Of a stretch of DNA of 5,029 nucleotides, positions 2 to 5,029 are shown piece after piece. Source of the DNA: Kiritimatiellia bacterium (GTDB taxonomy: Bacteria > Verrucomicrobiota > Kiritimatiellia > RFP12 > UBA1067); NCBI GenBank assembly GCA_017547265.1, contig JAFYQC010000243.1:1-5029 (forward strand), read 5' to 3'. The position numbers were made by a program, and so were the translations under genes. The stretch's first letter is position 1. Every line of letters starts with the position of its first letter. Below the pieces are notes generated by a model. That model did no database searches. It saw nothing but the letters and a program-made list of their open reading frames with translations, and was not told the DNA's origin.

Positions 2-1495
2 GTGTGCCGTACCGGCATCGGAATGTCGCTGGCCGCAAACCGCTTCCAGAACGTCCGTGCCGCCGTCTGTGCTACGACCGACGCGGCAACGATCACCCGC
101 CAGCACAACGGCGCGAACGTGCTCTGCCTCGGAGCAGACATCGTCTCTCCCGCCTATGCCGTTGAAATCGCAAAGGCGTTTATCGCGACTCCTGTCGACG
201 AGAGCGAGCGCCACGCGCGCCGCCGCTGGAAGCTCGAGCGCGCCGAGCGTCTTTCCGATTGCTCGGGGCTTATGCGCGACGATCCCGAGGTCTACGCCGC
301 GATCGAGGCGCAGACAAAGCAGGAGGACGCCGAAATCAACTTGATTGCGTCCGAGAACACCTCTTCCCGCGCATGCCGCGAGGCGGCTGGGTCTGTCCTC
401 ATGAACAAGTACGCTGAGGGCTATCCGGGGATGCGCTGGTACTCAGGCTGCCTTCCCGTCGATGCGGCTGAGGAGCTTGCGAGGAAGCGCGCGTGCGAGC
501 TTTTCGGCGCCGAGCACGCGAATGTCCAGCCCCACTGCGGCTCTGCCGCGAACATGGCGGTCTACTTCGCGACGATCAAGCCCGGCGACACGATCATGTC
601 GATGTCGCTTGATCAGGGCGGCCATCTGTCGCACGGCTCGCCTGTCAATTTCTCGGGCAAGATCTACAACATCGTTCCCTACACCGTCGACCCGAAGACG
701 GAAATGCTCGATTACGACGCAATGGAAAAACAGGCGCTTGAAATCAAGCCCAAGATCCTCCTGACTGGCGCTTCGGCCTATCCCCGCACGATAGACTTCA
801 AGCGCATCCGCGAAATCTGCGACAAGGTCGGCTGCATCATGATGGTCGACATGGCGCACATCGCCGGTCTCGTCGCCGGTGGCGCGCATCCGTCGCCTGT
901 TCCCTACGCCGACTTCGTCACGACGACGACGCACAAGACGCTCGGCGGTCCACGTGGCGGCATGGTGCTCTGCAAGGAGAAGTGGGCAAAGGCGCTCGAT
1001 TCCGCGGTGTTCCCCGGCATGCAGGGTGGCCCGCTCGAGAATATCATCGCTGCGAAGGCGGTCGTCTTCCGCGAGTGGATGAGCGAGGCGAAGAAGGGCT
1101 ATGCCCAGCAGGTCGTCAAGAACTGCCAGGTGATGTGCAAGACCGTCCAGGATCGCGGCTATCGCATCGTTTCCGGCGGCACTGACAACCACCTCTTCCT
1201 TGTTGACGTCAAGAAGTCGAAAGGCATCACCGGCAAGGAAGCCGCGGCCGCTCTTGACGCCGCCGGCATCATCGTCAACAAGAACACGATCCCCTACGAC
1301 ACCGAGTCTCCCTTCAAGACTTCCGGCATCCGCGTCGGCACTGCGTCCGCTACGACGCGCGGCATGAAGGAAGCCGAGATGATCAAGATCGGCACGTGGA
1401 TCGCCGACGTTCTCGACAATATCGCAGACACCACAGTCCAGGAGAGAGTCAAGCGCGAAGCCGCGGCACTCGTCGCGAACTTCCCTGTCCCGTAA
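2..1495 (+). CDS. glyA: RpiB-GlyA fusion: ribose-5-phosphate isomerase B C-terminus joined to complete serine hydroxymethyltransferase (5' partial)
   Basis: Residues are numbered from base 2, which is mid-gene: the GTG there encodes a Val of the RpiB core, not a start. Residues 1-80 match the second half of RpiB (ribose-5-P/ribulose-5-P isomerase): the Cys-containing loop CRTGIGMS (2-9), AANR, the [13 protein letters not shown] segment (33-45) and the HARR tail (71-74). About 65 N-terminal residues lie outside the window. With no stop between them, a full-length SHMT of about 415 residues follows from residue 83. SHMT is a cytosolic PLP enzyme that converts serine and tetrahydrofolate to glycine and methylene-THF. 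Visible motifs are NKYAEGYPG (135-143), RWYSGC (145-150), GGHLSHG with the PLP-stacking His208, VDMAH (282-286), TTTTHK with the Schiff-base Lys312, and SGIRVGT with carboxylate-binding Arg444. Trp146 replaces the first Tyr of the E. coli RYYGG motif. rpiB and glyA are near neighbours in Bacillus, so fusion is plausible. The stop overlaps the era start. CRTG in place of the usual CGTG/CGSG is odd. Confidence 0.95.
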
Positions 1496-2556
1496 TGGCG
1501 AAGGTCGCGACAGTCGCAGTCGTGGGGCGCACGAACGCGGGAAAGTCCACGCTCGTAAACGCGCTCGTAGGTGAGAAGGTCTCGATCGTCTCCCCAGTCG
1601 AGCAGACGACGCGCAACACGATTCGCGGCATTGTCGCAGACCCGCGCGGACAGCTTGTCCTCCTAGACACGCCCGGCCTCCACAAGGCCGTCGGCACCCT
1701 CGGCACGCTTCTCAACCGCATGGCGCGCAGAAGTGCTGCCGGAACTGACATCACTTGCGTAGTTTTCGACGCATCGCAGGAACCGCAGCTCGAGGACATC
1801 GGCTGGATGCAGCGCGTCGCAAAGGAAAAGCCCGAGAAGGTTGTATTCGTCCTTAACAAGGCCGACAAGGCGCCTTTCTTCGAGAAGATGTTCCGCGACG
1901 CCTGGCAAGAGGCGTGTGGGACAAGTGGGAGTTCAGAGTTGGAGTTGGAGAAAGGGGTCAGGAGTCAGTACGCAGGGGTCAGGGGTCAGAGTGGGAGTTC
2001 AGAGTTGGAGTTGGAGAAAGGAGTCAGGGGTCAGGAGTCAGGGGTCAGGGGGCAGAGTGGGAGTTCAGAGTTGGAGTTGGAGAAAGGAAGAATTCCTCTT
2101 TGGGTCAAGTCTATTTCCACGACCGAGGGGGGCGCGAAGCCGGTTCTCGATGCGCTTTTTGGCTTTGCCGAGGAAGGCGAGCTCCTTTTTGACGAAGACA
2201 TTGTGACGGACTATCCGCGCAAGCTCGCGATAGCCGACGTGATTCGCGAGAAGTATCTCGCCCATCTACACCAGGAGCTGCCGCACGAACTAGGCATAAT
2301 TGTAAAGCGCGTCATTGACGAGGGGTCGCGCTGGAAGTCAGAGGCCGAGGTGCTCGTCAACCGTCCTTCGCAGAAGCCGATAGTCATCGGCAGGGCGGCG
2401 TCCACGATAAAGGCCGTTCGCAAGGCGGCGGAGCGCGAACTGAAGGAAGTGTTCGGCGTGCCTGTCTCGCTGGAACTCTGGGTGAACGTCGAGCCCAACT
2501 GGATGAAGAACCAGAAGCTACTCGCGGAAATGGGCTACCTTGGAGGGTTGGTTTAA
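1495..2556 (+). CDS. era: GTPase Era with an in-frame repeat insertion in the G domain
   Basis: Era is an essential GTPase that binds 16S rRNA near its 3' end and assists 30S subunit maturation. The ATG at 1495 shares its A with the glyA stop (TAATG) and gives 353 residues; further upstream the frame reads nonsense antiparallel to GlyA coding. G-domain motifs are G1 GRTNAGKS (11-18), G2 QTTR (37-40), G3 DTPG (58-61), G4 NKAD (121-124) and G5 around SIST (206-209), where Thr replaces the usual Ala. Residues 144-199 are a 22-residue repeat (SGSSELELEKG followed by a VRGQ-rich linker, about 2.5 copies) absent from ordinary Era. Removing it leaves about 297 residues, the normal family length. The C-terminal type II KH domain runs from about 250 to 350, with QKPIVIGRAAS at the nucleic-acid loop (GRAA instead of GxxG) and the LELWVNV...W...LAEMGY ending typical of Era. 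No strong Shine-Dalgarno is visible, so coupling to glyA is likely. All GTPase motifs are intact, so the protein is probably functional. Confidence 0.95.
   Translation: MAKVATVAVVGRTNAGKSTLVNALVGEKVSIVSPVEQTTRNTIRGIVADPRGQLVLLDTPGLHKAVGTLGTLLNRMARRSAAGTDITCVVFDASQEPQLEDIGWMQRVAKEKPEKVVFVLNKADKAPFFEKMFRDAWQEACGTSGSSELELEKGVRSQYAGVRGQSGSSELELEKGVRGQESGVRGQSGSSELELEKGRIPLWVKSISTTEGGAKPVLDALFGFAEEGELLFDEDIVTDYPRKLAIADVIREKYLAHLHQELPHELGIIVKRVIDEGSRWKSEAEVLVNRPSQKPIVIGRAASTIKAVRKAAERELKEVFGVPVSLELWVNVEPNWMKNQKLLAEMGYLGGLV
1924..2087 (+). repeat. 66-bp-period tandem repeat inserted in frame in era (2.5 copies)
   Basis: Three identical 32-bp cores (beginning AGTGGGAGTTCAGAG and ending GGAGAAAGG) lie at 1924-1955, 1990-2021 and 2056-2087, exactly 66 bp apart. 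The two 34-bp linkers (1956-1989, 2022-2055) differ from each other at about six positions and are built of five degenerate heptamers of the form RGTCAGG. Because 66 is divisible by three, the era frame is preserved and each unit encodes the same peptide, SGSSELELEKG plus a linker rich in V, R, G and Q. All three forward frames are free of stops across the array, while the reverse strand is full of TGA from the heptamers. The flanks (about 1915-1923 and 2088-2095) show no target-site duplication that I can recognise and no transposase gene. The pure purine-rich, hydrophilic composition contrasts with the surrounding GC-rich era sequence. Confidence 0.95.
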
Positions 2557-2592: not shown

Positions 2593-4694
2593 TTAGAGCT
2601 GTCGGAAGTTTGTTGATGGGCGTCATTGGTTTTATGGCGTCCTTCTCGGCGTTTGGCGACGAGCTTGCTATCGCGCGCGAGGCGCTTCGCGACGGGCTCT
2701 GGGATGTCGCGCGCACGCATGCCGCTAAGTCCGAAGATCCTGCCGCTCGCTTTGTCATCGCCGAGAGTTTTGCTCGCGAAGGCAAGTGGAAGGAGCTTGT
2801 CGAGGCGATCGATGGCTGGGGCAACCCTGAGGACGAGCCGTTTCTCTATTACCGTGCGCTTGCGCTTGTCGAGACGGGCAAGAATGCGCAGGCGAACTTC
2901 ATTCTTGCAGATCGCAAGTTTGCCGATCCCGCCTATTCGCGCCTCGCAACGCGTCTCAAGGCGCGTATCGCAATGTCCGAGAAGGGCGCGGCCGAGGCGC
3001 TCAAGGTTGTAAAGGACGCACCCGACGAAATTGCCGACGAAGACTCCGCGATGTTTGCGGCGGGGCTTATGGCTGCGAGTGGCGACAAGCAAGGCGCCGA
3101 GGAGATCTGGCGTGCCATTGCCGCGCGCGGCACCAACGCGAGCGAGAGGGCTTTTGCCGCGGCGAGCGTGAACCTCAATGACGAGCAGCTTCTCCGTACG
3201 GCGTATGAGCGCAGCCAGTCGTCGGAGTCGAAGCGGCGCACCGGCTATGCCCTCGGCAAGCTCCTGCTTGCGAAACCAGAGACGCTCGACGAGGGCGCGA
3301 CGATCGTGCGTTCGCTTGTGCGCGCAGCGCCAGATGCGCCCGGCGCGCGTGATGGAATGTCCGCGATAGCCGACGCGTGTCTCGATGGCGGCCGCTATGC
3401 CGAGGCCGTTGCCGCCTACAAGGAGACGTTCGAGACGTGGCCAGATGCGGCGAAATCGTCGCTTCTCCAGGACGGTCTTGGCTGGGCGCTTGAGAAACTC
3501 GGCAAGTACGACGAGGCGCTTGAGGCCTTCAGACGGGCCGAGGAGACGGCTCCCGGCGACTCCGTGCGTGCGAGGGAGATCGTCAAGCAGGGCGACGTGC
3601 TCGCCTTGTCGGGGAAAATCGACGAGTCGCTTGTCAAATACAGGACGGTGTTGGCAAAGTATCCAGCGACTGACTCTGCCGCGCGCATAAAGGACATCGT
3701 CCGCATCAGGGATCTCGAGGACCGCGGGCGCGAACTCTATCGCGAATACAGGTTTGCCGAGGCGCAGAAGGTTTTCAGGGAAGTGGCCGAGAAGGACGCT
3801 TCGCGCAAGTCGCGGATGGACTATCTCGAGGCGATGTGCCTCTACGGTCAGGGGCTCGACGAGGAAGCCGAGCGCCTCGTTCGTCGAATCGCGTCGGAGT
3901 CCGCCGACGCCGAGACTAAGTCGATGGCCGTGCTGTGGCTTGCGAAGCACTCCTACAATCGCGGCGCGTGGCAGGAGTCGCGCAAGCTCTTCTCCGAGTT
4001 TGCCGAGAAGTCTCCCGACTCGCCAGATGCGCCCGAGGCGCTCGTATGGTCGGCTCGCGCAGCGTTTGCAGAGAACGACTTTCAGGCCGCGATACAGACT
4101 GTCACGCGCCTTGCTGAGAAATATCCCAATTCACCTTCGTCGCTGCGCGGGCTTCTCGTCCAGGGCGAGGCGCTTATCGAACTTGCGCGATTCGACGAGG
4201 CGGTGCTCGTTCTTGAAAGGGTCGCTCTTGCCAACGGTGTAGACGCTGCGGACAAGCTCAGCGCAAAGCTTCTCGGCGCGGACGCGCTTTTTGCAATGGG
4301 TGCTGACAATCCTGTGCGCTACCAGGAGGCCTTCGAGGCGTATCGCGGCGTCCGCGACGGCGAGGAGCTTTCGCCTAGCCAGCGCATTTCCGTCTCCTAC
4401 AAGGCCGCGAAGACACTCGAAAAACTTAAGCGCATGGACGAAGCCATAGATCGTTACTACACGGATGTCGTCCTTGCCTATCGCATGGCGCGCACGCAAG
4501 GCGTGCGCATGGACGATGAGGCGCGCGCGGCGTTTTCGCGCGCCGCGTTCACGCTTGCCGACGAGTACGAGTCGCGCGGTCGCGACTTCCAGGCCGTACA
4601 TGTACTCGAGCTGGTTGTCGCGAGCGACGTTCCCGCATCTGTCGAGGCCGCGAAGCGCATGGAGCGCATCAAGAGGAAAGGAAACTTCCTATGA
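2580..4694 (+). CDS. Exported TPR-repeat protein upstream of an ExbB/TolQ-like gene
   Basis: This 704-residue protein has a signal peptide if it starts at the TTG at 2580: charged Lys2 and Arg6, a hydrophobic core at about 10-24, and a plausible cleavage after AFG (24-26). There is no lipobox Cys. The rest is an alpha-helical solenoid of degenerate tetratricopeptide repeats. The clearest are at about 266-325 (RYAEAVAAYKETFETWP; GKYDEALEAFRRAEETAPG), 332-361, 383-406, 412-440, 450-480 (GAWQESRKLFSEFAEKSP), 487-518, 524-550, 564-590 and 603-630. TPRs mediate protein-protein contacts; no catalytic motif is visible. The stop overlaps the start of the ExbB/TolQ-like gene (ATGA), so a role as periplasmic partner of that proton-driven complex, comparable in context to YbgF/CpoB of Tol-Pal, is a reasonable inference. 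The start is uncertain: ATG 2616 has a better upstream GGAAG but would remove the charged n-region. The array at 2551-2592 overlaps the proposed first codons. Confidence 0.85.
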   Translation: MKIEFRAVGSLLMGVIGFMASFSAFGDELAIAREALRDGLWDVARTHAAKSEDPAARFVIAESFAREGKWKELVEAIDGWGNPEDEPFLYYRALALVETGKNAQANFILADRKFADPAYSRLATRLKARIAMSEKGAAEALKVVKDAPDEIADEDSAMFAAGLMAASGDKQGAEEIWRAIAARGTNASERAFAAASVNLNDEQLLRTAYERSQSSESKRRTGYALGKLLLAKPETLDEGATIVRSLVRAAPDAPGARDGMSAIADACLDGGRYAEAVAAYKETFETWPDAAKSSLLQDGLGWALEKLGKYDEALEAFRRAEETAPGDSVRAREIVKQGDVLALSGKIDESLVKYRTVLAKYPATDSAARIKDIVRIRDLEDRGRELYREYRFAEAQKVFREVAEKDASRKSRMDYLEAMCLYGQGLDEEAERLVRRIASESADAETKSMAVLWLAKHSYNRGAWQESRKLFSEFAEKSPDSPDAPEALVWSARAAFAENDFQAAIQTVTRLAEKYPNSPSSLRGLLVQGEALIELARFDEAVLVLERVALANGVDAADKLSAKLLGADALFAMGADNPVRYQEAFEAYRGVRDGEELSPSQRISVSYKAAKTLEKLKRMDEAIDRYYTDVVLAYRMARTQGVRMDDEARAAFSRAAFTLADEYESRGRDFQAVHVLELVVASDVPASVEAAKRMERIKRKGNFL
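2604..2608 (+). promoter_or_regulatory. Possible ribosome binding site for an alternative TPR start (ATG 2616)
   Basis: GGAAG lies 7 bases before an in-frame ATG at 2616, whereas the TTG at 2580 is preceded only by AAAAG of the heptamer array. If this site is used, the protein starts MGVIGFMASFSAFG and lacks a positively charged n-region, which is unfavourable for export. I therefore prefer the TTG at 2580 and list this as a competing possibility. Confidence 0.3.
4673..4682 (+). promoter_or_regulatory. Shine-Dalgarno region of the ExbB/TolQ-like gene
   Basis: The purine run GAGGAAAGGA, inside the last codons of the TPR gene, ends 8 bases before the ATG at 4691. Together with the ATGA overlap it fixes that start and suggests the two proteins are made in coupled amounts. 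Confidence 0.65.
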
Positions 4695-5029
4695 CGATAT
4701 CAGGTGGACCCGTGTTCTGGCTGCTCGTGGCGCTTGCCGTCGCGGCGGTCGTCATTTTCTTCGAGCGCTTCTTCGAGCTTAGGCGCGTCCAAATCGACTG
4801 GCAGGACTTTGTCAAGGGCGTAATCAACGTCCTCGGCGGCGGAAATGCCGAAGAGGCGCTAGCGATATGCGAGGACACTGCCGTTCCAGTCGCAAGCGTC
4901 GTCGCGACCGCCATCCGCCACCGCGACGCCGGTGCACGCGTGTTGCGCGAGGCCGTTGATTCGCAGGGCCGCGCCGAGATAAGCCGTCTCGACCGCCGCC
5001 TTGCTGCGCTCGCTATCATAGGGCAGATA
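4691..5029 (+). CDS. MotA/TolQ/ExbB-family proton channel protein (3' partial)
   Basis: The first 113 residues are present; the window end cuts the gene. The N-terminus MTISGGPVFW is followed by a hydrophobic segment at about 9-24 and then FFERFFELRR, the pattern of the first transmembrane helix and cytoplasmic junction of ExbB/TolQ. Next come the soluble region with ALAICEDTAVPVASVVATAIR (56-76), the helix REAVDSQGRAEISRLDRRLAALAIIGQI (86-113), and the approach to the second transmembrane helix, which lies beyond the window. Members form the inner-membrane pentamer that, with ExbD/TolR, uses the proton gradient to energise TonB or Tol-Pal function. The proton-path residues in TM2/TM3 are not visible, and sequence alone does not separate ExbB from TolQ. 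The ATG overlaps the TPR stop by four bases, and an ExbD/TolR gene is expected next. Confidence 0.88.
   Translation, partial: MTISGGPVFWLLVALAVAAVVIFFERFFELRRVQIDWQDFVKGVINVLGGGNAEEALAICEDTAVPVASVVATAIRHRDAGARVLREAVDSQGRAEISRLDRRLAALAIIGQI

Follow-up and report, generated by a model that had tools for sequence, protein, structure and literature searches.

Several kinds of short repeat are known that spread through bacterial genomes and may stand inside genes. The Rickettsia palindromic elements (RPE) are described as dispersed palindromes found both in intergenic regions and in frame inside conserved protein genes (PMC2229807). Intragenic GTAG and CGTC REPs have been reported as well, including in the two uvrA genes of the verrucomicrobium Opitutus terrae (PMC3733652), and the heptameric repeats of Xanthomonas and Nostoc (GGGNATC type) occur as genome-wide tandem arrays, mostly between genes (PMC4692102). 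In-frame RPE and intragenic REPs are already known; the mixture of repeats described here, their turnover at one site and their host group appear to be new. No description of in-frame repeats in Kiritimatiellae was found in titles and abstract openings, with few subscription papers covered. In these gut bacteria a surface loop of the GTPase Era, a protein essential to ribosome assembly, is filled with translated, genome-dispersed short repeats, which are also found in several other core proteins. Our reading, to which we assign a probability of about 0.75, is that dispersed repeats entered a tolerant loop of Era in frame, in the manner of RPE, and that slippage and further exchange followed.

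The window (the whole stretch of 5,029 nucleotides that was analysed) begins within an rpiB-glyA fusion, of which it has the end, and continues with era, a TPR gene and the first part of another gene. Its Era scores above the curated cut-offs of two family models (NF000908, 253.5 bits against 237; TIGR00436, 179.2 against 116.25) and carries the Pfam domains MMR_HSR1 and KH_2. The features of the gene and its insert are as follows.

1495-2556, plus strand: era, encoding GTPase Era (353 aa) and carrying the insert between G4 and G5; identified by NCBIfam, Pfam and structure match 1wf3
1924-1955, plus strand: core copy 1 (32 bp), which matches the left arm of a 72-bp palindromic element
1956-1989, plus strand: heptamer block 1 (GGGGTCA type; TRF 1953-1989, period 7)
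1990-2021, plus strand: core copy 2 (32 bp)
2022-2055, plus strand: heptamer block 2 (GGGGTCA type; TRF 2019-2055, period 7)
2056-2087, plus strand: core copy 3 (32 bp)
2088-2096, plus strand: centre of the palindromic element; copy 3 and these nine bases together match the element at 38 of 41 positions

The sequence-only reading had described three 32-bp cores lying in frame in era at a period of 66 bp, and this was confirmed, coordinates included, the cores being identical to one another. TRF finds the array at 1924-2088 (period 66, 2.5 copies, score 288). The longest exact direct repeat in the window is 36 bp, as against at most 17 bp in 200 dinucleotide shuffles, so the repeat in era is not a product of chance. 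The 34-bp stretches between the cores are heptamer repeats, the two copies of which differ from each other, and the second 66-bp unit is 91% identical to the first. All three forward frames of the insert are open and all three reverse frames contain stops; no GTAG tag was seen when the insert (1921-2096) was read from the sequence. As had been proposed, the insert sits between the G4 motif NKAD (residues 121-124) and the G5 region. The loop does contain extra residues, and the figure of about 56 put forward for them can be refined: the shortest Era proteins among the 120 homologues listed measure 300-302 aa, which makes the loop of the window Era about 51-53 residues longer than theirs.

From the general features of the fold, the loop would lie on the face away from the nucleotide site. 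AlphaFold2 on 66 Era sequences gave a mean pLDDT of 82.8 and a pTM of 0.78, and the best solved match of the model is Thermus thermophilus Era (1wf3, TM 0.88 by target length). Residues 146-197, between a helix (130-143) and a strand (202-205), have a pLDDT below 50, and the suggestion of a disordered loop thus agrees with the prediction. As the loop is predicted to be disordered, its content is probably near neutral. A large insert in a conserved gene could also be one that is removed after transcription or translation, whether as an intein, as an intron or by ribosome bypass. We consider this extremely improbable, given that no splicing (Hint) domain is found in Era (Pfam, E 1e-5) and that the insert is in frame and stop-free, which removal would not require.

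A protein search yielded 6130 homologues among 8000 scored candidates; the best 120 were listed, and those with a source named are from Kiritimatiellae. Across these 120 and the window Era (121 proteins), the loop from NKAD to G5 is hypervariable, with lengths of 10-63 aa. According to labels that we assigned ourselves, it contains one core in 43 proteins, two cores in 44, three cores in 2, one core with a reverse arm in 3, and two cores with a 70-bp element in 1; the others are of the GNGER type (12), GNGER with REP (4), GNGER with the 70-bp element (1), REP (2), GEGEG (6) and APST (3). When the loop is cut out, only 93 distinct sequences are left of the 121 proteins. In 11 groups of Era the remainder is identical, and the loops differ in 10 of these groups, the eleventh having three members with one core each. 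The window Era, with three cores, is identical outside the loop to P0002, with two, and the same holds for P0028 (two cores) and P0100 (GNGER). The content of the Era loop turns over quickly, and the recent change in copy number suspected from the window is borne out, Era proteins identical outside the loop carrying three, two or one cores. Also in keeping with that reading, no core is present in nine more distant loops from Kiritimatiellae and Verrucomicrobia that were inspected (L031, L033-L036, L039-L042; the loop pattern missed 6 of 43 sources, namely L022, L024, L025, L026, L029 and L032). Label changes counted on a protein tree (49 for all labels, 30 for core number) were dropped as evidence because the loop-less Era proteins are too alike to resolve the tree.

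At the DNA level, the best 80 of 292 Era loci were taken from the GTDB set, and nine Era genes were compared (window, L001, L002, L003, L004, L005, L006, L028 and L030). SHMT lies directly upstream of era in all nine loci (the L001 contig has the end of SHMT only). The TPR gene is directly 3' of era in the window, L001, L002, L004, L005 and L006 and about 2.5 kb further downstream in L003 and L030; no match to it was found at the L028 locus. Era is under purifying selection, with dN/dS (NG86) outside the loop of 0.011-0.123 in the 36 pairs of the nine genes, and each of the 10 genomes searched has a single Era match (E <= 1e-30). The reading frame is retained because Era is needed, as the single open copy per genome and the low dN/dS show. 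The contigs of L002 and L005 are about 98% identical across 8.9 kb (97.7% over the 2167 bp that precede the loop and 98.4% over the 6711 bp that follow), with wholly different loop content: cores and heptamers in L002, a REP doublet in L005. Differences between the two are slightly more frequent next to the loop than in other parts, a hint of a recombination tract but too little to claim one. The Era loops of sister genomes hold a REP doublet, the 70-bp element or GGGGAAC heptamers.

These comparisons also bear on whether the repeat is an assembly artefact. The sequences come from metagenome assemblies, short-read assemblers err at repeats, and the number of units is the least safe detail. However, all nine compared Era genes are open, the two sides of the loop agree closely between L002 and L005, and one core is present in 46 and two cores in 45 of the 121 homologues, from many records. 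Misassembly is an unlikely cause of the era insert, and we put its probability very low.

The cores are found well beyond era. An exact 24-mer starting GGGAGTTC had no match in the 80 Era loci because it carries the window's own arm variant, and a 26-bp core was used later. Allowing at most one mismatch, this core has 76 copies in G001, a near relative, and 10 in G005, with none for the reversed control, and is present in 7 of the 76 genomes of the family sample. With the era insert as query, 8 of 10 related genomes gave matches, at 3-56 places each, and the other 2 gave none. Dispersal of the core has been shown in relatives of the window organism only. A repeat private to era is not supported, nor is the view of the sequence-only reading that it differs in kind from RPE, as the core corresponds to the left arm plus centre of a palindrome that is dispersed and stands in frame in other genes. 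An alternative is purely local growth, in which replication slippage lengthened a low-complexity Era loop and dispersed repeats contributed nothing. It would account for the tandem structure with its 66-bp period, for the varying copy number and for those loops of relatives that hold no nameable dispersed repeat (for example L030, GEGEG type). The occurrence of the same core at dozens of other places has already weakened this explanation, the entire loop content has been swapped for other dispersed families, and the peptide encoded by the element is present in unrelated proteins; we regard local growth alone as improbable.

The location of most copies speaks against the entry of dispersed repeats into genes. 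For G001, 52 of the 76 core places were listed and 36 stretches examined, the era copy and one contig-end copy being left out; by our own open-frame and dicodon score, which is not annotation, 5 of the 44 core clusters in these stretches lie in genes and 39 outside. The same score applied to repeat intervals, defined by 14-mers present at at least 5 places, put 14 of 54 in genes, 39 outside and 1 at an edge in 388 kb of G001, and 0 of 5 in genes, 4 outside and 1 at an edge in 300 kb of G002. Inside and outside counts from period arrays were set aside, ordinary codon-period arrays being mixed there with dispersed repeats. The G001 sample (L141-L160) contains many AAAAGTTG-type 8-mer arrays, mostly intergenic by our score.

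The other components of the Era loops are dispersed too. Heptamer tandem repeats, made of head-to-tail 7-bp units in the window, recur as period-7 arrays in the G001 and G002 samples, and GGGGTCA-type heptamers, the spacers in era, are found between genes as well. They resemble the heptamers of Xanthomonas and Nostoc in being tandem 7-bp units spread over the genome, mostly intergenic, but differ from them in sequence and in that some stand in frame inside conserved genes. The era insert of L003, a 70-bp element, has matches in 10 of 10 genomes; copies of this element (L003:10439-10511) are 90-99% alike across genomes and sometimes adjoin heptamer or REP copies. The era insert of L005 consists of a GTAG-hairpin present twice in opposite directions and has matches in 7 of 10 genomes, and the L028 insert is of the same doublet form. 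The L005 insert shows the GTAG tag, stem-loops and RAYT association of GTAG REPs and BIMEs. RAYT-like matches occur in 10 of 10 genomes, one of them above the curated cut-off, with 6 of 14 control genomes positive too; the match in G002 (L230) has REP copies related to the L005 era insert on both sides and scores 72.8 bits, short of the curated cut-off of 80. The likeness to GTAG REPs and BIMEs with their RAYT is found in the L005 and L028 inserts and in the flanked G002 match, whereas the window insert has no GTAG-hairpin and the G002 match falls short of the cut-off.

Many of the copies inside genes form a complete, though imperfect, palindrome about 67-89 bp long, mostly 71-78 bp. A search with a 72-bp copy returned 59 matches, spread over 9 of 16 genomes (E <= 1e-9), some on both strands of one place, and none in the other 7 at that threshold. 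The 30 matches that were retrieved were classed and represent 28 distinct copies (for L291 the stronger copy next to it, that of L282, was read instead, and L308 and L304 are one place). Of these, 6 lie outside genes and 22 within, at 14 sites by flanking peptide, all 22 in the sense direction as called from the unequal arms. The insertions make use of all three sense frames. By eye, two of the three reverse frames are open too, so stop avoidance alone would leave sense-only insertion at 14 sites with a chance that we estimate at about 0.6 to the 14th, near 8e-4. One copy with its flanks (L262) folds at -50.4 kcal/mol, as expected of a palindrome. Both sides had changed in 0 of 14 consensus pairs, and we make no claim of a selected RNA on that account. 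The window insert retains only one arm and the centre, its copies 1 and 2 departing from the element at AAAGG. A nhmmer search with the element found the era insert of L002, and both arms are visible in the peptides of Era P0075, P0105 and P0119. The first of these came up in a search whose query was the region that the element encodes in an unrelated protein (92% identity over 39%, E 2.5e-3). In form and placement the element is like RPE: dispersed, palindromic and in frame in conserved genes. It differs in belonging to another phylum, probably in sequence, in size (about 72 bp against 105-146 bp), in being mixed with heptamers and tandem duplication, and in the turnover of unrelated repeats at one site.

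The same process has affected several other genes of these genomes. NCBIfam identifies the host genes as carA, gltB, uvrA, valS, priA and a radical-SAM protein gene, and further hosts are pyrG and a GH92 glycosidase; for dnaG and alpha-galactosidase the profile match that gives the name leaves the insert out, and in fucokinase-, rhamnosidase- and NapG-like genes the insert is outside the profile-matched stretch. The inserts of valS, dnaG, priA and the galactosidase are 7- or 8-mer repeats, those of carA, pyrG and GH92 are the palindrome, and among conserved genes the palindrome stands in frame in carA, gltB, uvrA (in G001 and G009) and pyrG. One uvrA loop reads GSGVRSQESG in G002, GTGNGERAGG in G010, GMGNGERAGG in G003 and SWSSKLELEKGTIPHSNSKLEP in G009, and is about 70 aa long in G004; another uvrA loop of G009 reads like the 70-bp element of the L003 era, in the same frame. 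In the valS comparison the G007 and G015 rows were unusable, G002 and G016 were partial, and 3 of 16 genomes gave no match at threshold. The gltB gene of G001 has three palindrome copies (L144:14513-14579, 14988-15065 and 15230-15300) plus other repeats, and in the gltB alignment there are 17 gap blocks that are 7 or more columns wide; several of them adjoin, and repeats do not account for all. Recurrent loop peptides in gltB of related genomes (L309-L319), such as NAESQSRREVCGG..LRLCVEK, look like translations of other repeats.

The third of these gltB copies is identical at 72 of 72 positions in G001, G009 and G003 (70 of 72 in G006), with 400 bp on each side 86-92% identical; the 5 windows at the element are the only ones of 1175 that are identical in the three genomes. 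A second gene also has its element at 72 of 72, which is not special, as 201 of its 912 windows are identical too. The gltB copy, identical in three species, and the long variable loop found at the same place in many Era relatives might be taken to indicate that the repeats give Era a disordered segment that changes fast and is under selection, with a role in regulation, binding or phase-like variation. However, sequence, length (10-63 aa) and repeat family vary among Era proteins that are identical elsewhere, and the presence of similar repeats in unrelated proteins favours tolerance; we give a functional loop little chance. Unlikely, too, is the proposal that in Kiritimatiellae a gene-internal palindrome enters coding DNA sense-wise and stays more constant in its DNA than the host gene does, whereby core proteins would gain and exchange disordered loops at fixed sites actively and not by passive tolerance.

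If, as we favour, dispersed repeats entered Era by a route like that of RPE, an element of about 72 bp, palindromic and with no stop in any sense frame, would have entered the alpha4-beta6 loop, as the homologue peptides with both arms suggest. The full element would have come first, with loss of the right arm, heptamers and duplication later. In the lineage of the window, left arm and centre are left and are joined to GGGGTCA-type heptamers in a 66-bp composite of 22 codons, which is now present in three copies in the window era. Turnover may since have proceeded by slippage, by new repeat insertions and perhaps by recombination between alleles; no recent insertion was observed whose junctions cleanly match an empty site. 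These bacteria would then be a natural experiment on the load of foreign peptide, in amount and place, that an essential protein bears. Related genomes carry different repeats in the same Era, UvrA, ValS and GltB loops, so the entry of dispersed repeats into reading frames can be studied there, as can what makes certain loops landing places and whether these loops are neutral. Annotation and identity clustering could also split or mislabel proteins that bear such repeats.

Some further observations concern the surroundings of era. Rfam matched nothing in the window, and the start of the further gene (4691-5029, plus strand), with an N-terminus that is hydrophobic by eye, had no Pfam or NCBIfam match. 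An array of GTTAAAA heptamers (2551-2585) lies immediately 3' of the era stop codon; a 17-mer of it had no exact match in the 80 Era loci, and other heptamers occupy the site in L001 and L006. Upstream, RpiB (ribose-5-phosphate isomerase B) and serine hydroxymethyltransferase form one reading frame (window 2-1495, plus strand), and an RpiB-like start is in the same frame as SHMT in all six relatives inspected.
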